Part shown: positions 3,314-58,452 of the stretch, piece after piece
Layout of the letters: each line of letters starts with the position of its first letter
Position numbering within the stretch: the first letter of the stretch is position 1
NCBI GenBank assembly: GCA_024279865.1
Contig: JAJRRC010000038.1
Span: 1 to 60,742, forward strand
Reading direction: 5' to 3'
DNA from: Planctomycetota bacterium
Lineage (GTDB): Bacteria; Planctomycetota; Phycisphaerae; Phycisphaerales; Phycisphaeraceae
Length of the DNA stretch: 60,742 bases
The notes under the pieces: generated by a model
Told to the model about the DNA's origin: nothing
The model's input: the letters and a program-made list of their open reading frames with translations, nothing else
The model's database searches: none
Program-made: the position numbers and the translations under genes

Positions 3314-3360
3314 CGCGGCTTAAAGCTTCAAGTATTCTGAATCCATGGTTCGCATTTTGG

Positions 3361-3413
3361 GGATCGGAACCCGGCCCATCACCCCGGGGGTTTAGGGCTC
3401 GGCGTTGTGATGA
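3361..3413 (+). repeat. R2-type dispersed repeat copy b
   Basis: GATCGGAACCCGGCCC...GGGCTCGGCGTTGTGATGACC, with a hairpin core and the conserved tail. It sits between two convergent genes, the commonest setting for this family in the window. Confidence 0.65.
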
Positions 3414-3498
3414 CCACAAACAATGACATTGGTTCCTCGTTCACATCCCCTTCTTTTTTCGTGTTTTTTGTGTTTTTTGTAGCTATTCCCCCAAAAGA

Positions 3499-4884: not shown

Positions 4885-4979
4885 AGATTCAAAAAAAAGT
4901 TTACTGAATCCTTAACGCTATTCGGCCGCGCAAGCTGTAAGCTTGCGGCTATTTCCGTATACAAAGACAGCTCTGACTC

Positions 4980-5073
4980 TAGAGCGCGTGATGCACTTTT
5001 GCGTCAGCATACTTGTTTTTCTCGTGTTTTTCCTTGGCGTCTCACAAGACGAAAAAGTGCATCACACGCTCTA
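4980..5073. mobile_element. MITE-like element A1 with terminal inverted repeats
   Basis: A 94-bp unit with imperfect inverted ends: TAGAGCGCGTGATGCACTTT on the left and the reverse complement of TAGAGCGTGTGATGCACTTT on the right. The interior (CAGCATACTTGTTTTT... CCTTGGCGTCTCACAAGAC) reappears, in reverse orientation, in the longer element at 13461-13633. It encodes nothing. The right end supplies the TAG stop codon of the membrane glycosyltransferase gene (5071-5073). Confidence 0.7.
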
Positions 5074-7284
5074 AGGCAACTCATACAAATTTACCGCACG
5101 ACCGGCGCTGAAAACTGATTTCCAACCGGTGGCGATCATTTGCTGGAGCATCGGGGGCGTCACGTCTGGATCAAACCCATACGTCGCGTGCAAGCGGGCT
5201 AGTTCACCCCAGTGAATCCAAACATGGGTAATCCCCTCTTGCTTGAGCCGAGCGGTCACGGCTTGAGGGTTGTGCCTAGCTTCCCGAATCCACTGGCCCA
5301 GTGGGCTTGGATCAAACGCACTGTGATACATGAACCGATTGCGGATATAGAGTGAGCGTGAAGAGTCGGCAATCAGGTACGTATATGAATCGGCAGGCAG
5401 GTGATTGATTATATGATCGCCCGTTATCAATTGGCCGGGCTTGGCCTGTTCTAACATTTGTTCAGTGGGCAACGAATCGATGAAATACCATGCAGACTGC
5501 TTGGCGACGATTTGCTGCTGAAAGAGTTGAATGGACAACCCGGTTCCCAAGCATATCCAAAGGGCCATGAGAGCGGTCATTGCCCTTTGGAATATTTTTT
5601 TTTGCGGGCAAGCCAGGCCCAACATCCATGTGCCGGGCAGTAGTAGCCAGATGAGGAATCGAGCTTGTAGGTGGGTCGCGGTTAACCAAAAGGCCAATTG
5701 AAATAGAAGCATCAGCCATAGTGCGATGGCGAGGCGTTTGTGTGAACCCGCTACAAGCAAGCTCAGCCCGCTGCCTAGGGCAAGAAGCCAGAAGGTGGGC
5801 ATTCCCCATTCTCGATCAAAGCGAGCGATATTCTGTGATTCGATTGATCCGGGCTGTCGGTAGCGGGTTCGGCCGAGGATGCTGCCGTAGCCTTCGTTGC
5901 AGAGCCATTGGCGGGCGATTTCAGAACTGCGTTGGCTCCAGGTGGTTTGATTGGCATGTCCGTCATCCCAGCGTTTCACATCAGCAGAAGACCAGTGGCC
6001 CGCCCCGAAGGTTTGTGTGGCCATGGGAAAGACGGGATTGCCTGTCTGGATCGTGTTGCGAGCTAGGTAAGGGCTCAGGACCAACAGGCCCGCACCAGCC
6101 GCCCAGAGAGCCCCGGTCCACTGACGGTCGGATTGAGCATTGAGCTTCAATAGAAACAATAAACCCACCGGAACCGCCAGCATTGGGCCTGCGGTTAATT
6201 TGGTCAGCGTGGCTGCGCCCACGAGAAGCCCGCAAGCGATCGCTGCCCGCTTGGAGGTGAGCGTGGTATCAAACGCCACGATCAAGGCAGTAGCCCCCAA
6301 CGCCAGTGCCAGCATTTCGTTGTACGCCAACGTTGAAACAATGATCGTCCAGGGAACGGTTAAGAAAGCCAAGCCAGCGAGCCGTCCCCAAAATCGATTG
6401 GTCTGACGTGCGACCCCTTGCCCAATGCACAGGCTGGTCAAAACAGCCATGGAAAAATGCAACATTTGGCAAGCATAGATCGCCCGATACACACTGCCCA
6501 TCAAACCCGCGAGATGAAGATATGCCACTTCCATCAGGCTGGGGAAGAAGCTGTAGACGTTGTGTTCAAGCCCCCGCATTTGGCCGAGGGCAAGCCATTC
6601 ACCGGGGAGTTGGAGGTGATAGCTCAAGACGTCATAGCCAAAGGCTTCGACCTTCCACAACGTGCCAGGCGGACAGCAACATGCCGTCAACGCCAAGGCA
6701 AGGATCGGCATGGCAGCCAATAGCACCCAAAAACAACGAAGACTGTCAGAAGAAGAATCCGGCCCTTCAGAAGACTTCAGGACTCGGCGTTGGGAGATAG
6801 CCGTGCTGCTCAATACAGGTGAATTTTCGGAGGGACTTCCGGGGGCGGGGGGACTTCCGGGGGCGGCGTTTTTGAATTGCCAGTATTGTTTGGCACTCAG
6901 AGCCAGCCCCACGAGCAAGACCGCCCATGGCACAATCCCGTGCATCAACCCAGCCCATGCCAAAAGCCAATCGAGCCAGAGCATGGTCGCCAAGCCCAAG
7001 CCGGTTTGAATAAGCAAGCCATCTAAAGCAAGCCAACGTCGCAACAGCGTGCCATAGCCCATGACGGCAAGCCAAAAACCTGCCAAGAGCGGAGCGGTAA
7101 CGACCAGTTGATAGATCACACCCCAGAATCGAATGGTCGGCAATGTTTTAAGGCCAGGTGAAGCGTCCGCTGGAAACGTTGCAACCCATCCGCCATGGGT
7201 CACAAACCACAGGCTACTTAGAAAACACCCGCCGAGCAGGAAGCTTTGTGTCCATCGTGATCGAAAAAAAGATGCCGTGTTCAC
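5071..7284 (-). CDS. GT-C-type multi-pass membrane glycosyltransferase (ArnT/PMT-like)
   Basis: Integral membrane protein of 737 residues with about a dozen hydrophobic segments. The block YDVLSYHLQLPGEWL followed by SFFPSLMEVAYLH resembles the acidic loop and early helices of GT-C (family 39-like) enzymes that use polyprenyl-phosphate sugars, so a lipid-linked sugar transfer at the membrane is likely; donor and acceptor are unknown. A loop of about 45 residues after the fourth or fifth segment (APGSPPAPGSPSENSP... LKSSEGPDSSSDSL) is encoded by R1 and R2 dispersed repeats and looks inserted. The start overlaps the hemA stop by 4 bases, so the two are translationally coupled. The stop codon lies inside element A1, so the original C-terminus may have been different. 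Confidence 0.75.
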   Translation of the reverse strand: MNTASFFRSRWTQSFLLGGCFLSSLWFVTHGGWVATFPADASPGLKTLPTIRFWGVIYQLVVTAPLLAGFWLAVMGYGTLLRRWLALDGLLIQTGLGLATMLWLDWLLAWAGLMHGIVPWAVLLVGLALSAKQYWQFKNAAPGSPPAPGSPSENSPVLSSTAISQRRVLKSSEGPDSSSDSLRCFWVLLAAMPILALALTACCCPPGTLWKVEAFGYDVLSYHLQLPGEWLALGQMRGLEHNVYSFFPSLMEVAYLHLAGLMGSVYRAIYACQMLHFSMAVLTSLCIGQGVARQTNRFWGRLAGLAFLTVPWTIIVSTLAYNEMLALALGATALIVAFDTTLTSKRAAIACGLLVGAATLTKLTAGPMLAVPVGLLFLLKLNAQSDRQWTGALWAAGAGLLVLSPYLARNTIQTGNPVFPMATQTFGAGHWSSADVKRWDDGHANQTTWSQRSSEIARQWLCNEGYGSILGRTRYRQPGSIESQNIARFDREWGMPTFWLLALGSGLSLLVAGSHKRLAIALWLMLLFQLAFWLTATHLQARFLIWLLLPGTWMLGLACPQKKIFQRAMTALMALWICLGTGLSIQLFQQQIVAKQSAWYFIDSLPTEQMLEQAKPGQLITGDHIINHLPADSYTYLIADSSRSLYIRNRFMYHSAFDPSPLGQWIREARHNPQAVTARLKQEGITHVWIHWGELARLHATYGFDPDVTPPMLQQMIATGWKSVFSAGRAVNLYELP
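6751..6867. repeat. R2 and R1 repeats inside the glycosyltransferase gene
   Basis: 6751-6798 carries AGAATCCGGCCCTTCAG... ACTCGGCGTTG, a copy of the R2 family, and 6834-6867 carries two R1 units (GACTTCCGGGGGCGG) 18 bp apart. Both keep the reading frame open and encode a hydrophilic loop. Confidence 0.7.
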
Positions 7285-14922: not shown

Positions 14923-14950
14923 AGTGCAGCACAACGATCTGTCACGACTA

Positions 14951-15034
14951 AGAAGAATCCGACTCTTCGGCCCCCGGAGGGACCTCAGCGTTCGGCTTGA
15001 AAAATAGCTGCACGCATACTGCGTGCGCGGGTAA
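14951..15034 (+). repeat. R2 copy d plus palindrome R4 between convergent genes
   Basis: 14951-15000 reads AGAATCCGACTCTTCGG... CAGCGTTCGGCTTG (R2 family). It is followed at 15010-15026 by a palindrome GCACGCA-TAC-TGCGTGC, also found at 27399-27417 and 55181-55197, here followed by T-rich sequence. The palindrome could act as a weak terminator for the transpeptidase gene. Confidence 0.6.
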
Positions 15035-16097: not shown

Positions 16098-18275
16098 TCA
16101 ACTACCGAAAAGGATGTTTTTAAAGAAGATACAGAAAAAAATTACGCCCAGGAAAATGTGAGCCAGACCGACATAGCCAATGAGGTTCCGTGTCGAGCCA
16201 TCAACCCACATCAAAGGACGATTGACCAATTGACACACCCAATCAAGCCCAGGCCCCATGCGAGGCCCCAGAGATCGGGGTATCTCCATCACTTTCCCAA
16301 TCAGGGTGCGGACTATCCCTGTTTTGGGATTTTGGATGGCATCTAATGATTCCCCCGGCATGTTGTCTGTCGGAGCGGCCGCAGCGGCAACCTGAGATTG
16401 AGCTTGCCCCGCTTGCGGCGAAGAGGTCCCTGTTGCCATGGCAGCAGAGGCAGGCTTCTGAGCCACCTGTCCCATCATTTCAGACATATCTGGCAAATCT
16501 GCCAGCGATTGGGCAGAAGATTCTTCAATCTCGCTGGCGACTTCATCGGGCGCTTCAAAGCAGCCTTCAAGGTCCAGTTCATCAACCGCTTCTGAACCAT
16601 CTAAGTCAAGAGTTTCTGGAGATGAACCTGTTTCAACCAACTCGGCATCTTCTGATTGAACCGCTGCATTTTGAACGTCTTGCGGAGAATCAAAGCCTCC
16701 TTCCAATTCATCTTCGCCGACCAAAGCAGCTTCCTCGCCAGACACGATTGGTTGGGATAGCTGATTTTCCTTTGCCTCAACCGTAGAGGGGTCTAATTCT
16801 TGGCCTGTGATCTCTGACACCGAAGCAAAGGCACCTTCAATCGGCAATCCTGTATCGGACGACCCTGAAGTGCCTGCCAAATCCGAGGTTTCAAAGGTAT
16901 CCGCCACCGCATCGTCGGCCTGTTCAGCGAGCAAGGAGTCAATCTGATCCAGATCAACTGCCGTGTCTTGTGGTAAGTCTTCTTGTCCTGATGTCGCTGC
17001 CTCGGGAGCAGCCTCGGCAACGGGTGCGGGGGAGGGCTGTTGAAATAATGCGTCAAGTTCACTGGCCAGATCATCGATACCCAATCCTTCTTCGGATTGA
17101 ATCGGGGCTGGCTCGGGGGGACTCGGTGCAGCAGCTTGAACAGGAACTGTTTGAGCTGCGGGGGAACCGGGGGAACCGGGGGAAGCGGGGGAAGGTTCAT
17201 CTGCCCCGCCACCAAATAGCTTTTCAATGTCCTCAGCAGACATCTCAACAGACTCATCAGCAACCGGGACCGCTGGAGCTTCAACGGCTGTCGTGGGAGC
17301 AGCCTCGGCAACGGGTGCGGGCGAGGGCTGTTGAACTACCGCGTCCAGTTCACTGGCCAGATCATCGATACCCAATCCTTCTTCGGATTGAATCGGGGCT
17401 GGCTCGGGGGCACTCGGTGCAGAAGCTTGAACAGGAGCTGTTTGAGCTTCGGGGGAACCGGGGGAACCGGGGGAGCCGGGGGAAGGTTCATCTGCCCCGC
17501 CACCAAATAGCTTTTCAATGTCCTCAGCAGACATCTCACCAGGCTCATCAGCAACCGGGACCGCTGGAGCTTCAACGGCTGTCGTGGGAGCAGCCTCGGC
17601 AATGGGTGCGGGGGTGGGCTGTTGAAATAACGCGTCAAGTTCACTGGCCAGATCATCAATACCCAATCCTTCTTCGGATTGAGTTTTATCTGGCTCGGGG
17701 GGACTCGGTGCAGCAGCTTGAACAGGAGCTATTTGAGCTTCGGGGGAACCGGGGGAAGGTTCATCTGCCCCGCCACCAAATAGCTTTTCAATGTCCTCAG
17801 CAGACATCTCAACAGACTCATCAGCAACCGGAGTTGCTGGGGCAGATGGAGCTTCTGATGCTGTTTGTGATTGGGTTGCTTGGTCAATCGCTTGGTCAAT
17901 CGCCGCTTCGAGCCCCACCTCTTCGGTCAGAGCCTCCACCTCGACAAGCACTTGATCTGCCAAATTTCGAGAATGATCCACTGCTTCTAAGGGAGCGGGA
18001 ACTTGGGGAGCTTCCGTAGGAGTGAGGGAAACTTCCGGGGGTACTTCCGGGGGTACTTCCGGGGGTACTTCCGGGGGGGCTTCCGGGGGGGGAGCTTTGG
18101 GGATGAACGTAGGGACACCATCGTCACCCACCACCTGCTGAGCGTCGAGCAGGCCTGGCTGAACGTTTTCAACCTGGTCTAAAATCGCATCGAGCTGCTG
18201 TTCGATGGTCAGCTCGATATCCTGATTTTCAACCTCGGCCGCATCCTGCGACTGATTCACTTCTTCTGAGGCCAC
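16098..18275 (-). CDS. Large acidic repeat protein with C-terminal membrane anchor and recurring D-[IL]-x-x-[LI][FL] motifs
   Basis: 725 residues, very rich in Ala, Pro, Glu, Ser and Asp. Three tandem copies of a 91-97-residue unit (about residues 150-420) each contain MSAEDIEKLFGGG and, 40-50 residues later, LGIDDLASELDALFQQ. Related single motifs follow or precede them (VDLDQIDSLLAEQ, TIEQQLDAILDQV). The units are separated by Pro-rich stretches, including PPEVPPEV and (SPG)n encoded by R1-type repeats. Near the C-terminus a basic amphipathic stretch is followed by one transmembrane helix (IGYVGLAHIFLGVIFFCIFF). There is no signal peptide, so the long region should be cytoplasmic with a tail anchor. 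The motifs resemble the EIDALL peptide at the FliM N-terminus that binds phospho-CheY; that is a motif resemblance only. Function unknown; I call it a possible tethering scaffold. Confidence 0.7.
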   Translation of the reverse strand: MASEEVNQSQDAAEVENQDIELTIEQQLDAILDQVENVQPGLLDAQQVVGDDGVPTFIPKAPPPEAPPEVPPEVPPEVPPEVSLTPTEAPQVPAPLEAVDHSRNLADQVLVEVEALTEEVGLEAAIDQAIDQATQSQTASEAPSAPATPVADESVEMSAEDIEKLFGGGADEPSPGSPEAQIAPVQAAAPSPPEPDKTQSEEGLGIDDLASELDALFQQPTPAPIAEAAPTTAVEAPAVPVADEPGEMSAEDIEKLFGGGADEPSPGSPGSPGSPEAQTAPVQASAPSAPEPAPIQSEEGLGIDDLASELDAVVQQPSPAPVAEAAPTTAVEAPAVPVADESVEMSAEDIEKLFGGGADEPSPASPGSPGSPAAQTVPVQAAAPSPPEPAPIQSEEGLGIDDLASELDALFQQPSPAPVAEAAPEAATSGQEDLPQDTAVDLDQIDSLLAEQADDAVADTFETSDLAGTSGSSDTGLPIEGAFASVSEITGQELDPSTVEAKENQLSQPIVSGEEAALVGEDELEGGFDSPQDVQNAAVQSEDAELVETGSSPETLDLDGSEAVDELDLEGCFEAPDEVASEIEESSAQSLADLPDMSEMMGQVAQKPASAAMATGTSSPQAGQAQSQVAAAAAPTDNMPGESLDAIQNPKTGIVRTLIGKVMEIPRSLGPRMGPGLDWVCQLVNRPLMWVDGSTRNLIGYVGLAHIFLGVIFFCIFFKNILFGS
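17031..17830 (-). repeat. Three coding repeats of 273-291 bp
   Basis: Near-identical blocks recur about every 291 and 273 bp (for example GCCACCAAATAGCTTTTCAA at about 17204, 17495 and 17767). The length difference comes from changes in the number of 9-bp GGGGGAACC units. High nucleotide identity suggests recent duplication or gene conversion. Confidence 0.85.
18031..18094 (-). repeat. R1 array, 12-bp period, in frame
   Basis: Tandem ACTTCCGGGGGT units with a 12-bp period encode Pro-Pro-Glu-Val repeats near the N-terminus of the large repeat protein. The same unit and peptide occur in flhG at 58351-58403. Confidence 0.8.
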
Positions 18276-22427: not shown

Positions 22428-22553
22428 GCGGATCACTTCTTCCTGATAATTCCCATTTCAACTTAATATTGACCTCACAATGCGAGGTCGTGTCATTATT
22501 CCCGCCTTCGCATGGGTTGTCAAGTAAAACCTTGCCGCAGGCAACCGTCCATC

Positions 22554-22601
22554 GCATGCTTCACGCCCAAGGGCGTGAAGCATGCGGCGTTGTGATGGCC
22601 A
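22554..22601. repeat. Perfect 32-base palindrome with R2 tail
   Basis: GCATGCTTCACGCCC, AA, then GGGCGTGAAGCATGC form a 15-bp perfect stem with a 2-base centre. It is followed directly by GGCGTTGTGATGG, the tail of the R2 family. It lies upstream of the GntR-type gene. Confidence 0.7.
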
Positions 22602-22702
22602 AACGCCATCTATTTCGACCAACCAATATCCCCTCGCGGAAACACCTTCAAAGCGACCTTGAAATTTATACGGGGAAAAAACGTAGATTTCAAAATATTT
22701 TT

Positions 22703-27317: not shown

Positions 27318-27398
27318 GTAAAAGCAATCACTTGCCCATTTGGGGTGTGACAAGTACCCACCAGAACGTTTCCCATCATTGCCCGCTATCTGCCAACG

Positions 27399-27417
27399 CG
27401 CACGCAGTATGCGTGCG
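27399..27417. repeat. Palindrome R4 copy
   Basis: CGCACGCA-GTA-TGCGTGCG between the convergent flgM and ABC-F genes; same core as at 15010 and 55181. Confidence 0.6.
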
Positions 27418-27512
27418 ACTGCTTTTCAAGCAATCTAGTCCGACTGAAAACAGTTAATAATGATGCAAAATGACCGAAAGAAACAGCCGCAAGCGTTTTG
27501 TTCACAAACGCA

Positions 27513-31966: not shown

Positions 31967-32082
31967 TTAGAGCACCTCACACTCAGGGATCGTGGCTTGA
32001 TGATCCGTAATCGCCTTGGCAACCTCGTTTATGCAGTTTCCCCCAGTGACAGGACGCTACGCATGACCGTTAAACGCTCTAA
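31967..32082. mobile_element. Dispersed element B1 (116 bp)
   Basis: Bounded by TTAGAGC and GCTCTAA. It is about 90 percent identical, in inverse orientation, to 52340-52456, including an uninterrupted identical core of more than 50 bases. No coding capacity. It sits between the YdjY gene and the convergent tRNA-Arg, adjacent to R2 copy f. Confidence 0.85.
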
Positions 32083-32123
32083 AAGAATCCGACTCTTCAG
32101 AAGACCTTCGAATTCGGCTTTGT
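32081..32123 (+). repeat. R2-type dispersed repeat copy f
   Basis: AGAATCCGACTCTTCAGAAG ... ATTCGGCTTTGTCATC, abutting element B1. Degenerate at the tail. Confidence 0.5.
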
Positions 32124-32130
32124 CATCAAA

Positions 32131-32168
32131 CAAAAAAAAAAGACGCAAGCGATGAAGCTTGCGTCTTT
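32131..32168 (-). terminator. Intrinsic terminator after tRNA-Arg
   Basis: On the minus strand AAAGACGCAAGC pairs with GCTTGCGTCTTT around a 6-base loop, followed by a run of T. Confidence 0.85.
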
Positions 32169-45235: not shown

Positions 45236-45289
45236 AAGAGAGCAATGCGATTGAGACGTTTTTCAATTGATCTGTCGCTTTGTTACAAG

Positions 45290-45344
45290 GGGAATCCGGC
45301 CCTTCAGCCCCGGAGTGCTTCAGGGCTCGGCGTGTGATGACGCC
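45290..45344 (+). repeat. R2-type dispersed repeat copy g
   Basis: GGAATCCGGCCCTTCAGCCC ... AGGGCTCGGCGTGTGATGA, nearly identical to copy h at 48265-48317, between convergent genes. Confidence 0.85.
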
Positions 45345-45403
45345 ACGCTAAAGAACAACCCCAATAGCGAAGCTTTCAACCTATTAAAAACGTGGAAATA
45401 AGT

Positions 45404-48187: not shown

Positions 48188-48264
48188 CCCTCGAAAGTTG
48201 GGAGCGGAAAAAACGAACGCACTGTGAGCGTGTTTTAATTCCACCTGCTATGTTTTGGGATAAG

Positions 48265-48317
48265 GGGAATCCGGCCCTTCAGCCCCGGAGGGCTTCAGGG
48301 CTCGGCGTTGTGATGAC
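48265..48317 (+). repeat. R2-type dispersed repeat copy h (best example)
   Basis: GGAATCC, then a hairpin whose arms are GCCCT...AGCCC and GGGCT...AGGGC around a CGGA loop, with symmetric TC bulges on both sides, and then CTCGGCGTTGTGATGA. It lies between convergent genes. Confidence 0.88.
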
Positions 48318-48418
48318 TACCTGATAAACAGTTTCACTTTGTGAGACGCTTTCACACACGCCCCCAGAGCCATCATGTGTTGGCGCACCACACGACACTT
48401 GTGCAGCATCATCTTCTC

Positions 48419-52228: not shown

Positions 52229-52295
52229 GTAGACATTTTTTTATCGACTTTGTAAAAAAATAGAAAGAGACGCTCTTTGCTTGCGTCTTCGTCAT

Positions 52296-52331
52296 GGGGA
52301 ATCCGACTCTTCGGCCCTCAGAATACGGCTT
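52296..52331 (+). repeat. R2-type dispersed repeat copy i
   Basis: GGGAATCCGACTCTTCGGCC ... AATACGGCTTTTCC, degenerate tail, immediately left of element B2. A fragment AAGGGCCGGATTCTTCTTAC at 52512-52532 is the same family on the other strand. Confidence 0.6.
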
Positions 52332-52339
52332 TTCCAAAT

Positions 52340-52456
52340 TTTAGAGCGTTTAACGGTCATGCGTAGCGGCCCTGTCACTGGGGGAAACTGCATAAACGAG
52401 GTTGCCAAGGCGATTACGGATCATCAAGCCGTGATACCTGAGTGTCACGTGCTCTC
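52340..52456. mobile_element. Dispersed element B2 (117 bp)
   Basis: TTAGAGCG...GTGCTCTC. Inverse-orientation copy of B1 at 31967-32082, differing mainly in the first 30 bases and by a small indel. Both copies abut R2 repeats and lie between convergent genes. Confidence 0.85.
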
Positions 52457-52569
52457 TCTCATCCAGCGTGTTCTCCCAAGCCATCACAAGCCGAGTCCTG
52501 AAGTCCGCTAAAGGGCCGGATTCTTCTTACCCAACAAACAGACCAGACACACAGATACCTTTGAAAAAA

Positions 52570-52722
52570 ATCCTAGAAATGACCGGAGGTTCAGAGGGCC
52601 TCCCTAGTAAACCTCCGGGGATGGACTTCTAGCAAGGGGGAACCCCCGAGGACTTGCCAGACGCTTCTGGCAAACTTCTGGCAAACTTCCGAGGGAATTT
52701 CCGGGAAAATTTCCGGGGGGGC
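52570..52722. repeat. Degenerate R1-rich block
   Basis: Runs of ACCGGAGG, AACCTCCGGGG, ACTTCTGGCAA (twice), ACTTCCGAGGG, ATTTCCGGG and TTTCCGGGGGGG up to the purF stop codon. It looks like a decayed or growing array of R1-type units with periods of 10-12. Confidence 0.7.
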
Positions 52723-54138
52723 TTAGGGAAACATTTTGAGTTGATGGCGTTCAAGGTCCAGCTTGTTCACTGGCTGCTCCACATTCAATCGGTAGTTCCC
52801 GCTAAAGCAAGCATTGCAATAACTGTCATTGGGATGGGTCACACAGGAGAGCATGCCATCGAGTGTCAGGTAATGCAGTGAATCGACGCCTAGGAAATCT
52901 GCAATTTGTTTTTCGGTCCGAGCGGTGGCGATCAACTGTTTGGGATCTTGAAAGTCGATGCCGAAGTAACAGGGATGACGGATCGGCGGGCAGCTAATTC
53001 GCAGATGGATCTCCCGAGCACCAGCTCGGCGCAACTGTTCCATCTTCGCGCGGGTGGTGGTGCCTCGCACAATGGAATCATCGACCACAACAATTCGCTT
53101 GCCGTTGATGATATCACGCACCACGTTGAGTTTGAGCTGCACCGCGGTGTTGCGTTGACTTTGTGTGGGCTTAATAAAAGTACGTCCCACATAGCGATTG
53201 GGGACGATTCCCTCTCGATAAGGAATGCCACTGGCTCGAGAATAGCCCAGAGCGGCACTGCGGCCCGAGTCAGGCATCGGAATGATGCAATCCACCTCCA
53301 CGGGCGCTTCTTTGGCAAGTGTCTCTCCGAGCGACTCACGAACGATCTGGACCGTTTCACCAAAGACCTGGGAACTGGGATTGGCAAAATAAACATGTTC
53401 AAAAATACAGTGAGCAGGCTGCTGAACTTCCGCAAAGCGACGCGAGGACATACCTTTGTCGCTGATGGTCACAATCTCGCCTGGCTCGACCTCACGCAAA
53501 AAAGTTGCGCCAATGGCATCCAACGCCACCGTCTCACTAGCCACACAGGAAAAGCCCCCAGGCGTTGTGCCGATCACCAGAGGTCGAAACCCCCAGGGAT
53601 CACGAACCACTTCCAGACGGTCCTTAAACAGAAATACAAGGCTATACGCACCTTGCAAGTGCTGGAGGGTTTCCACCAAGGGGTCCGTATGGCTCAAATG
53701 ATGAGCTGCCAACAGGTGAATAATCACTTCCGTATCGGTGGTGGTCCGGTAGATGTGACCACGCTGCTCATATTCATCTCGTAAAATTTTGGAATTAATC
53801 AAGTTGCCATTGTGTCCCAACGCCACTTGGCCGCCGATATATTCGCGTAACAGTGGTTGGGCGTTTTCAGGAACACTTGAACCGGTGGTGGAATAGCGGT
53901 TGTGTCCGATCGCAGCATTGGAATCGGTCAGTGTATCTAGGACCGATTTCTTGAAGATTTCCGAGACGAGTCCCATGCCCACATGAGCGCGCAATAGGTT
54001 TCCGTCGGTCACGGCAATGCCTGCAGATTCTTGCCCACGATGTTGCTGGGCGTAAAGTCCGATATAGGCCAAATTCGCACTATCCGGATCCCCCCAAACG
54101 CCGAATACGCCACACTTATGTTTTGCTTCTTCAGTCAT
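52723..54138 (-). CDS. purF: Amidophosphoribosyltransferase
   Basis: First step of de novo purine synthesis: PRPP plus glutamine to 5-phosphoribosylamine. A short propeptide MTEEAKHK precedes the catalytic Cys9 (CGVFGVWGD), followed by the glutaminase motifs QHRGQESAGI and HNRYST. The PRPP site is VVVDDSIVRGTTT. Cysteines in CPPIRHPCYFG and YCNACFSG match the Bacillus-type enzyme with a 4Fe-4S cluster and processed propeptide. 471 residues is normal. It is transcribed alone, divergent from rpoZ, and its stop codon abuts an R1 block. Confidence 0.96.
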   Translation of the reverse strand: MTEEAKHKCGVFGVWGDPDSANLAYIGLYAQQHRGQESAGIAVTDGNLLRAHVGMGLVSEIFKKSVLDTLTDSNAAIGHNRYSTTGSSVPENAQPLLREYIGGQVALGHNGNLINSKILRDEYEQRGHIYRTTTDTEVIIHLLAAHHLSHTDPLVETLQHLQGAYSLVFLFKDRLEVVRDPWGFRPLVIGTTPGGFSCVASETVALDAIGATFLREVEPGEIVTISDKGMSSRRFAEVQQPAHCIFEHVYFANPSSQVFGETVQIVRESLGETLAKEAPVEVDCIIPMPDSGRSAALGYSRASGIPYREGIVPNRYVGRTFIKPTQSQRNTAVQLKLNVVRDIINGKRIVVVDDSIVRGTTTRAKMEQLRRAGAREIHLRISCPPIRHPCYFGIDFQDPKQLIATARTEKQIADFLGVDSLHYLTLDGMLSCVTHPNDSYCNACFSGNYRLNVEQPVNKLDLERHQLKMFP

Positions 54139-55145: not shown

Positions 55146-55180
55146 CGCTTTTTTATCATTTCCTGCCGCCCGCCAGATGC

Positions 55181-55207
55181 GCACGCAGTCTGCGTGCAGC
55201 TGTTTTT
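55181..55207 (+). terminator. R4 palindrome serving as terminator after coaC
   Basis: GCACGCA-GTC-TGCGTGC followed by AGCTGTTTTTTT. Same palindrome family as at 15010 and 27399. Confidence 0.6.
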
Positions 55208-57372: not shown

Positions 57373-58452
57373 TTAATCGCGTCGCATCCAGCGGGTCATG
57401 CGTTGGAACAAGCCTCCGCCGTCGGGAATCTTGGCCAGACGGTCTACCCGCTTGGCGAGTGTTCGGACGCACTGGGCAGCTTCACTGCGTGGAGCGGACA
57501 AGATGAACGGCTTCTGGGCCCGGACGGCTTTGGGGACAGCCATGTCGTGCATGATATGCCCCGCATAAAGGATATTCAAAGATAAAAACTGGCGACACAC
57601 CGCATCAAGCCGTTGATAAACGCGATGGCCTTCTTCACGGGAATGTGCCATATTAACCAGCAACCTGATATCCAGATCGGTCTTGCGATTGGCCAAGGTT
57701 TTAAGCACCGCATACGCATCTGTAATAGCGGTGGGCTCGGGAGTTGTGACCACGAGAATTTGATCGGCCCCCAGGGCAAAACCCAGCACATTCGAAGATA
57801 CGCCAGCACCGGTATCCAGAAGAATCACGTCCACTTCGGATTCTAATTCATAGATTTGCTGAACCAGTCGATCCCGTTCATGTGGGGTCATGTCTGCAAT
57901 TTGAGCGAGGCCAGAAGCACCGGGAACCAATTTAAATCCACCTGGTGCGTCAATCATCACGTCACGCAATCGACGTTTGCCTGTCACAACCTCAGCCAAA
58001 GTAGCCCCCACGGGAACATTGCATAACACATCTGCATTGGCGGTCCCTAAATCCGCATCAAAGAGGACCACCCGTCTGCCTGCCTGGGCAAGTTGAATGG
58101 CCAAGTTGATTGAGACATTGGATTTTCCAACACCTCCTTTACCGCTGGTCACGGCGATGATTCGTGCGCGGGATTGGTGAGAAGTCGTTCGAGGCAAGGC
58201 CGTGGCCTCGGCTCTCTGGGCTGCTTCAAAGAGAGCCTGTGCTGAAGGGTCGATCTGTGTGGGTGGCTTTGGCCGCGACCTAGGCAGAGGCGTGATACTG
58301 GGAGGCACGACTGCGGTCTTTTGAGCCACAACCGGGGATACAACCGGGGATACTTCCGGGGGCACTTCCGGGGGGACTTCCGGGGGGACTTCCGGGGGGG
58401 GGGCGGCAGCCACCATTTTGCGAAGGGCTTGAGCTTGGTCGAGTGTGGTCAT
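57373..58452 (-). CDS. flhG: Flagellar number/placement ATPase FlhG (MinD-like)
   Basis: 359-residue MinD/ParA-type ATPase. The deviant Walker A is SGKGGVGKSN (residues 103-112), switch I DADLGTANADVLCN, and DTGAGVSSNVLGF, followed by TPEPTAITDAYAVLK, as in FlhG/YlxH. It controls flagellar number and place together with FlhF. The N-terminal 90 residues are an extension of unusual make-up: PPEVPPEV repeats and a Pro/Arg-rich region, encoded partly by an R1 array at 58351-58403; the FlhG DQAxxLR motif that stimulates FlhF is visible at the very N-terminus (DQAQALRKM). It overlaps the flhF stop by 4 bases. Confidence 0.93.
   Translation of the reverse strand: MTTLDQAQALRKMVAAAPPPEVPPEVPPEVPPEVSPVVSPVVAQKTAVVPPSITPLPRSRPKPPTQIDPSAQALFEAAQRAEATALPRTTSHQSRARIIAVTSGKGGVGKSNVSINLAIQLAQAGRRVVLFDADLGTANADVLCNVPVGATLAEVVTGKRRLRDVMIDAPGGFKLVPGASGLAQIADMTPHERDRLVQQIYELESEVDVILLDTGAGVSSNVLGFALGADQILVVTTPEPTAITDAYAVLKTLANRKTDLDIRLLVNMAHSREEGHRVYQRLDAVCRQFLSLNILYAGHIMHDMAVPKAVRAQKPFILSAPRSEAAQCVRTLAKRVDRLAKIPDGGGLFQRMTRWMRRD
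58351..58403 (-). repeat. In-frame R1 array in flhG
   Basis: Five or so ACTTCCGGGGG(G/C) units with a 12-bp period, encoding Pro-Pro-Glu-Val repeats directly after the DQAQALR motif. Confidence 0.85.

Follow-up and report, generated by a model that had tools for sequence, protein, structure and literature searches.

R2, a high-copy REP-like palindromic repeat in a genome of the Phycisphaeraceae

Relation of R2 to described REP families

In the passages of the survey by Di Nocera et al. 2013 (PMC3733652) drawn on here, REPs were sorted into the GTAG and CGTC superfamilies and described as located between convergent and co-directional genes, with some copies residing within genes, many of them genes of replication and repair. 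The CGTC REPs, which according to these passages are not associated with transposase genes, include the Rickettsia repeats RPE-4 and RPE-6, with stems of 8–9 bp and intragenic copies; stems in this superfamily start with A-T pairs, and the loops comprise 4–5 nt. Many more untagged REP families were considered likely in the same passages, and the question of what moves transposase-less families was left open there. The TnpA enzymes of the IS200/IS605 group act on single-stranded hairpins, as stated in the part of PMC6006769 cited here.

The repeat R2 described in this study was found in a 60,742-nucleotide stretch of Planctomycetota DNA (contig JAJRRC010000038.1, positions 1 to 60,742; hereafter the window), and further copies were recovered from the remaining genome. 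Pseudopilin-like sequences in this genome suggest a planctomycete host near Phycisphaerae. With the GTAG REP/RAYT system, as far as it is described in the cited passages (PMC3733652), R2 shares a short, tagged hairpin whose loop varies, a large number of copies, oppositely oriented pairs, a location at gene ends, and intragenic copies; as in REPs, its copies are numerous, dispersed, and preferentially placed 3' of genes. However, GTAG is absent from the 15 tags that cover 149 of the 150 aligned copies, the tag being mostly GAAT, and the R2 hairpin is followed, on the side away from the tag, by a conserved tail that does not pair; no RAYT was found in its genome. All nine close pairs are inverted, resembling BIME/REPIN dimers, yet R2 occurs mostly as single copies, with 17 out of 150 being members of close pairs. 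An 8-bp stem, intragenic copies, and a search of the genome that yielded no transposase for the family are features in common with the CGTC REPs, as characterized in the same passages (PMC3733652). In its own genome, however, the R2 tail mostly reads CGTT, CTTT, or CATT, and a CGTC/TGTC/CCTC tag was not seen; moreover, the stem starts with C-G (142 out of 150 copies), and the loops vary widely instead of comprising 4–5 nt (PMC3733652). In the related genome G006, however, CGTC directly follows the CGG foot in some copies, and R2 may be related to the CGTC REPs. As for the IS200/IS605 elements, an IS200 gene is present in the R2-bearing genome, but the boundary of this element starts with CTAAACCACTACCGGCTGAAGCCGGTAG and not with R2. 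Since the GTAG tag is lacking and, in its own genome, neither a CGTC tag nor an A-T start of the stem was observed, R2 is filed here as a REP-like family outside both superfamilies. It was not recognised as previously described in the literature searched, which comprised the top-ranked papers only and hence provides weak evidence of absence. The unusual interest of R2 lies solely in the question of what spread it.

Copies, structure and genomic placement of R2

A stem-loop followed by the tail CGGCGTTGTGATGA was confirmed at positions 48265–48317 of the window, as proposed by an earlier, sequence-only reading of this DNA. The R2 unit at this locus (48267–48316, plus strand) is composed of the GAAT tag (48267–48270), the hairpin (48271–48305), and the tail CGTTGTGATGA (48306–48316); the corresponding covariance-model match extends from 48259 to 48333 and achieved 70 bits, this copy being a training row of the model. 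The model was built on 29 aligned rows, namely 26 of the 30 exact-tail loci and three window copies without exact tail, with loci L004, L020, L027, and L028 omitted as shorter-looking or poorly aligned. All nine positions named by the sequence-only reading, which had claimed at least eight copies, were scored by the model, six of them being training rows and the one at 22533 being weak.

Among the remaining plus-strand copies in the window, those at 1988–2056 (64.3 bits) and 3359–3430 (54.2 bits) feature the exact tail and are located in co-directional gaps, and a further one (6747–6815) resides with open frame within a membrane-protein-like gene encoded on the minus strand (5071–7284; weak family resemblance, 30.8 bits vs. 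a cut-off of 100). Convergent gaps harbour the copies at 32077–32145 (50.9 bits, tail variant CTTTGTCA), 45284–45357 (63.8 bits, tail short by one base), and 14947–15020 (27.3 bits, tail variant CTTGAAAAATAGC), the latter running into an R1 palindrome, GCACGCATACTGCGTGCGCG, at 15010–15029 (plus strand). A degenerate copy in a convergent gap (52291–52348, 21.5 bits) represents one half of an inverted pair, its tail-to-tail partner on the minus strand (52465–52531, 42.7 bits) being a tenth copy, absent from the earlier list. The weak match at 22533–22615 (17.7 bits, E 0.014), located in a co-directional gap, has a fully paired stem and the tail CGGCGTTGTGATGG at 22585–22598. The copies at 1988, 3359, 6747, 32077, 45284, and 48259 served as training rows, and the matches at 52465, 14947, 52291, and 22533 are independent of model training. 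In total, five of the nine listed copies lie in convergent gaps, three in co-directional gaps, and one inside a gene, in agreement with the five or six convergent-gap copies and the single copy in a coding sequence originally reported. Rfam at gathering scores, applied to the window, returned two tRNAs and nothing for R2.

The strong evidence for the tail comes from the whole genome, in which the exact sequence CGGCGTTGTGATGA occurs 33 times (16 forward, 17 reverse) compared to zero matches for the reversed pattern. Its conservation among the listed copies did not hold as stated, since only three of the nine carry it exactly. Two further tails are near-exact (22585 with one mismatch and 45284 without one base), and the remaining four have diverged (CGGCGTTGGGAGAT, CGGCTTGAAAAATAG, CGGCTTTGTCATCA, and CGGCTTTTCC). 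Allowing up to three mismatches, 17 tail matches were detected in the window, representing a modest excess over shuffled sequences (mean 6.9, largest 12). The GAATCCG lead, likewise described as conserved, is exact in six of the nine copies. Furthermore, the stem at 22554 had been regarded as totally different from the others; it is not unique, since in copy L003 an identical upper stem with perfect pairing (GCTTCACGCCC..GGGCGTGAAGC) precedes the exact tail. L003 retains the ATTCG foot, which the window copy does not have. In substance, the earlier observation is thus real and was confirmed in part.

Genome-wide, at least 146 covariance-model matches were obtained from the 3.4 Mb genome, with 150 out of 1376 candidates scored. 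Analysis of 755,295 bases, comprising extracted stretches and the window, yielded 153 model matches, of which the best 150 were aligned and the three weakest left out. On a strict reading, 28 of the 33 copies with exact tail are included in this set; no fewer than four copies that are known or have the exact tail (L003, L017, L026, and L028) lie outside the stretches behind it. Flanks were analyzed for 148 and folding energies for 149 of the 150 copies. In public genome contigs, four stretches with the 20-base pattern were found, all scoring 16.4–17.6 bits by the model and judged to be chance matches, and viral contigs contained no match to this pattern.

The usual R2 unit is approximately 65–80 nt long and consists, in this order, of a purine run, the GAAT tag, a CCG foot, five more stem pairs, TC, an apical hairpin, TC or TT, five stem bases, a bulge, and a CGG foot. 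GAAT was present in 112 and AAAT in 13 of the 150 copies, and the CCG/CGG foot in 123. The flank preceding the tag is purine-rich, with A or G at position -1 in 91% of 148 copies. Paired changes partly maintain the 8-bp stem, which contains one unpaired base on its 3' side (T in 129 and G in 18 of 150). The internal loop is of the TC/TC or TC/TT type, its commonest form corresponding to tandem G.A on the other strand; on the 3' side, TC was found in 90 and TT in 28 copies, opposite TC in the commonest pairings. RPE-like repeats have an internal loop of the GA/GA type in common. The apical hairpin is freely variable and differs considerably in length between copies.

The tail starts with CNTTGTGAT in 77 of the 150 copies, with CNTTGTCA in 13, with forms of the CTTGAAAA type in ten, and with other forms otherwise; about half of the copies follow the conserved pattern CNTTGTGAT-nn-YYGCANGC, and 30 carry the full tail CGTTGTGATGA. 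Among the 77 copies with a CNTTGTGAT tail, conservation extends approximately 22 bases beyond the hairpin and then ends. A second hairpin after the tail is present, mostly in decayed form: a perfect stem of at least 6 bp was found in 17 of the 150 copies, compared to about 3.8 expected from shuffles. A resemblance of the tail to integron attC sites was considered and set aside by eye.

Pairing of the stem was evaluated on two alignments. In the independent 29-row alignment made by MAFFT, pairing was seen in 92.7% of 232 cells, and 21 cells had changed on both sides compared to a shuffle mean of 7.5, a value reached in none of 500 shuffles; two coarser measures of covariation in the same alignment stayed at shuffle level (two-sided-change pairs, 2 vs. 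1.9; further pair types, 7 vs. 7.2). In the alignment of 150 rows, which was fitted to this structure and therefore leans towards it, 91.6% of 1191 cells were paired, with slid controls reaching 4–51%, and 137 cells had changed on both sides compared to 47 in shuffles (0 out of 500 as high). Regarding the strand that folds, RNA energies make the opposite strand the more stable one in 134 of 149 copies and DNA energies in 111 of 149, and C.A cells exceed G.T cells on the written strand (68 vs. 25). These values give a hint, but no more, that the strand opposite to the written one is the folding strand, because 48 of the 68 C.A cells fall on one base pair (this pair is non-standard as written in 55 of 148 copies, and would be G.T on the other strand in these 48), and a single inherited subfamily may account for most of them.

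To place the copies relative to genes, coding sequences were called by a small codon-usage script that accepts only open frames and predicts starts approximately. The 150 copies were assigned to convergent gaps (80), co-directional gaps (52), divergent gaps (6), gene interiors (6), and stretch ends (6), so that 80 of the 138 classifiable intergenic copies are convergent and six divergent. Since the stretches are centred on R2 copies, the R2-containing gaps were set against the R2-free gaps of the same stretches. Among gaps of at least 70 bases, the convergent type accounted for 74 out of 127 with R2 versus 26 out of 260 without, and the divergent type for 6 out of 127 versus 85 out of 260. R2 copies hence accumulate on the downstream side of genes and are depleted from divergent (promoter) gaps, the head side being located at a median distance of 70 nt from the stop codon. 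Close neighbours (≤300 bp) formed inverted pairs in nine out of nine cases, six with tails and three with heads inward, and some of these pairs could represent two copies placed independently in one gap. Orientation in co-directional gaps was even (24 same, 28 opposite). Among the co-directional copies with an A- or G-rich flank, 28 of 42 were oriented opposite to the upstream gene and 14 in the same direction; for the remaining flanks, none was opposite and ten out of ten were the same.

Six of the 150 copies reside inside called genes, with no in-frame stop in any of them, an observation that is partly circular because the gene caller takes open frames only. Independent support was obtained from homology on both sides of the copy, namely for MurC, PriA, and, less cleanly, a metal ATPase, all three of which were named by NCBIfam above the cut-offs. 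In MurC, query residues 335–402 are extra relative to the solved homologue 9ir5, whose chain is continuous at this point, and R2 encodes residues 373–398. The R2 peptide of PriA (224–249) lies inside region 138–286, which the best PriA chain in the PDB left unaligned and which is preceded and followed by homologous sequence; that of the metal ATPase falls into a region where chain 3j08 has gaps. The genes carrying copies at L179 and L181 received no name from any search run. The full tail was kept in none of the six intragenic copies. With their R2 copies, MurC and PriA offer natural test cases for the tolerance of proteins to inserts of this kind.

Some further features were observed in genes of this kind. 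The murC gene (L184, 1884–3533) contains an insert of 68 residues between two Mur ligase blocks, which consists of R2 plus other repeats and is longer than R2 alone. In G006, an aconitase-like gene (L100, 187–1182; named by eye) contains an R2-like hairpin close to its C-terminal end, read in frame as KPSPERSEGPD.

Distribution in relatives and the question of a mobilising enzyme

The abundant exact tail is peculiar to the genome studied, since among 60 relatives only three showed a match, with one each. The core hairpin is patchily distributed among relatives. The full model detected R2 at E ≤0.01 in 10 out of 101 genomes, with many copies only in G006 (16) and in the R2-bearing genome itself (49 under the stricter filters applied), values that are undercounts because of these filters and a limit on the candidates scored. 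The hairpin pattern recovered hairpins in genomes for which the model search had reported zero or one. The hairpin-only pattern matched in 7 out of 397 genomes of the class (own genome 88, G022 24, G062 23, G014 19, G045 9, G009 6, and G018 1), and its reversed control yielded zero in every genome. Six of these seven genomes, the R2-bearing one included, belong to the same family, where the core hairpin thus extends to other genera, and represent 6 out of its 15 members in the draw; G045 is a member of another family of the order, and G006 lies outside the 397-genome draw. Variable stem bases change together between genomes (e.g., GGG..CCC and GCC..GGC), and several R2-like copies in G006 form inverted pairs. 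Because related hairpins occur in relatives, a comparison of gene contents could help to home in on the enzyme.

Mobilisation by a RAYT, as suggested by the sequence-only reading, found no support in these data, and the REP/BIME-like part of that interpretation agrees with the copy number, the tagged hairpin with exchangeable apex, the placement at gene ends, the few inverted pairs, and the intragenic copies. Two Y1_Tnp matches were detected in the genome, an IS200-type transposase gene (L031, 1447–1914; 148.6 bits vs. a cut-off of 55) and a partial copy of it at a contig end (end of L032; 99% identical over 299 bases), and no R2 hairpin was present in the available flanks of either. The ends of this IS200 element were rejected as a source of R2, as the boundary shared by its two copies, mentioned above, is not R2. 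With about 150 copies in a genome whose Y1 matches are limited to an IS200 gene and its fragment, R2 constitutes a well-defined case of a REP-like family for which no associated transposase was found. A RAYT-like protein of one relative gave no match in the genome, in a search run without positive control. Overall, Y1_Tnp matches were present in 16 of the 17 genomes searched, own genome included (8 out of 8 with the hairpin and 8 out of 9 without). In hairpin-bearing relatives, which harbour 27 Y1 matches, 13 of the 14 scanned Y1 loci had no hairpin within approximately 1.5 kb, and at the 14th (L100) a single, one-sided copy was found, located in the adjacent aconitase-like gene. In G006, two proteins scored 60.1 and 40.1 bits against the RAYT model NF047646, short of its cut-off of 80. 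A target-site duplication was not detected, the mean longest shared word being 4.70 compared to 4.65 in re-paired controls, and empty sites were not demonstrable because no same-genus genome was among the relatives returned.

Our results indicate that R2 is probably a REP-like family of palindromic repeats, approximately 65–80 nt in length and present in at least 146 copies, that was spread by an enzyme acting in trans. The form in which copies spread would be a hairpin of single-stranded DNA, perhaps made by the strand complementary to the written one; the enzyme, not found here, would have been lost, would lie outside the assembly, or would be of a non-RAYT type, and selection would then clear copies from promoters and most genes. 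Putative roles at 3' ends, such as mRNA stability or the insulation of convergent transcripts, would be secondary. The REP-like architecture, comprising the tag, a stem with bulge and internal loop, the apical hairpin, and inverted pairs, would also suit a conventional REP/REPIN moved by a dedicated RAYT, and the wide occurrence of Y1_Tnp (16 out of 17 genomes), together with the two sub-cut-off proteins of G006, points in this direction. Such a RAYT may reside in the missing part of the assembly, which is 95.7% complete, or may since have been lost. However, no RAYT-like gene was found in this copy-richest genome, Y1_Tnp also occurs in eight of nine relatives without the hairpin, the scanned Y1 loci (14 of the 27 matches) showed no nearby hairpin apart from the one-sided case, and the tag is mostly GAAT instead of GTAG, which makes a RAYT origin unlikely.

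The placement data would likewise suit bidirectional terminators or stabilisers of mRNA 3' ends that are kept by selection and are not mobile, as 80 of 138 copies occupy convergent gaps at a median head-side distance of 70 nt from the stop codon, and the purine-rich flank means that the opposite strand reads hairpin-ATTC-pyrimidines. A weak hint in the same direction comes from the 70 copies with an A-rich flank, of which 17 versus nine in co-directional gaps are oriented such that a T-rich stretch follows the hairpin. Nevertheless, the tail side lacks a T-run (3.1 T in 8 nt), copies in co-directional gaps have no preferred orientation (24 vs. 28), copies reside inside murC and priA, the distribution among relatives is patchy, and the conserved unpaired tail is left unexplained, so that a purely regulatory origin is decidedly unlikely. 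Finally, a unit of 65–80 nt in high copy number would be compatible with a MITE moved by a DDE transposase, but with neither a signal of target-site duplication nor, by eye, a terminal inverted repeat beyond the hairpin itself, this origin appears highly improbable.

The neighbouring R1 palindrome and other repeats

A second palindrome, R1 (GCACGCTnACAGCGTGCGCGTC and variants), gave 74 pattern matches in the R2-bearing genome (control 0) and is located in the window at 4926–4956, 15002–15031, 27396–27426, and 55177–55207. In G014, 21 matches were found (control 1), whose compensated stem differs but is paired to the same degree, and the other six genomes searched contained zero or one. Out of 46 R1-like matches, 27 lie within 120 bases of R2, a share that is inflated because the stretches were chosen around R2. 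R2 runs directly into R1 at window position 14947 and at L163 and L176.

A more far-reaching reading, which goes beyond the REP-like family preferred above and appears rather doubtful, is that R2 and the often-following R1 form one modular, single-strand mobile system. A non-RAYT enzyme acting in trans would then recognise this system by two signals, the TC/TC loop (tandem G.A) and the conserved tail that stays unpaired, and several genera of the family would possess an activity that mobilises hairpins and places them, with the frame intact, also inside genes (e.g., murC and priA).

The window also contains arrays whose 12-base units resemble ACTTCCGGGGGT, at 18014–18119, 52668–52749, and 58311–58428. 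Peptides of the GTSGG and PGSSPGSS type, which similar 12-base units can encode, occur inside R2-bearing genes, e.g., murC and priA. The R2 hairpin at L161 (2897–3045) encloses an R1 unit and may represent a nested insertion.
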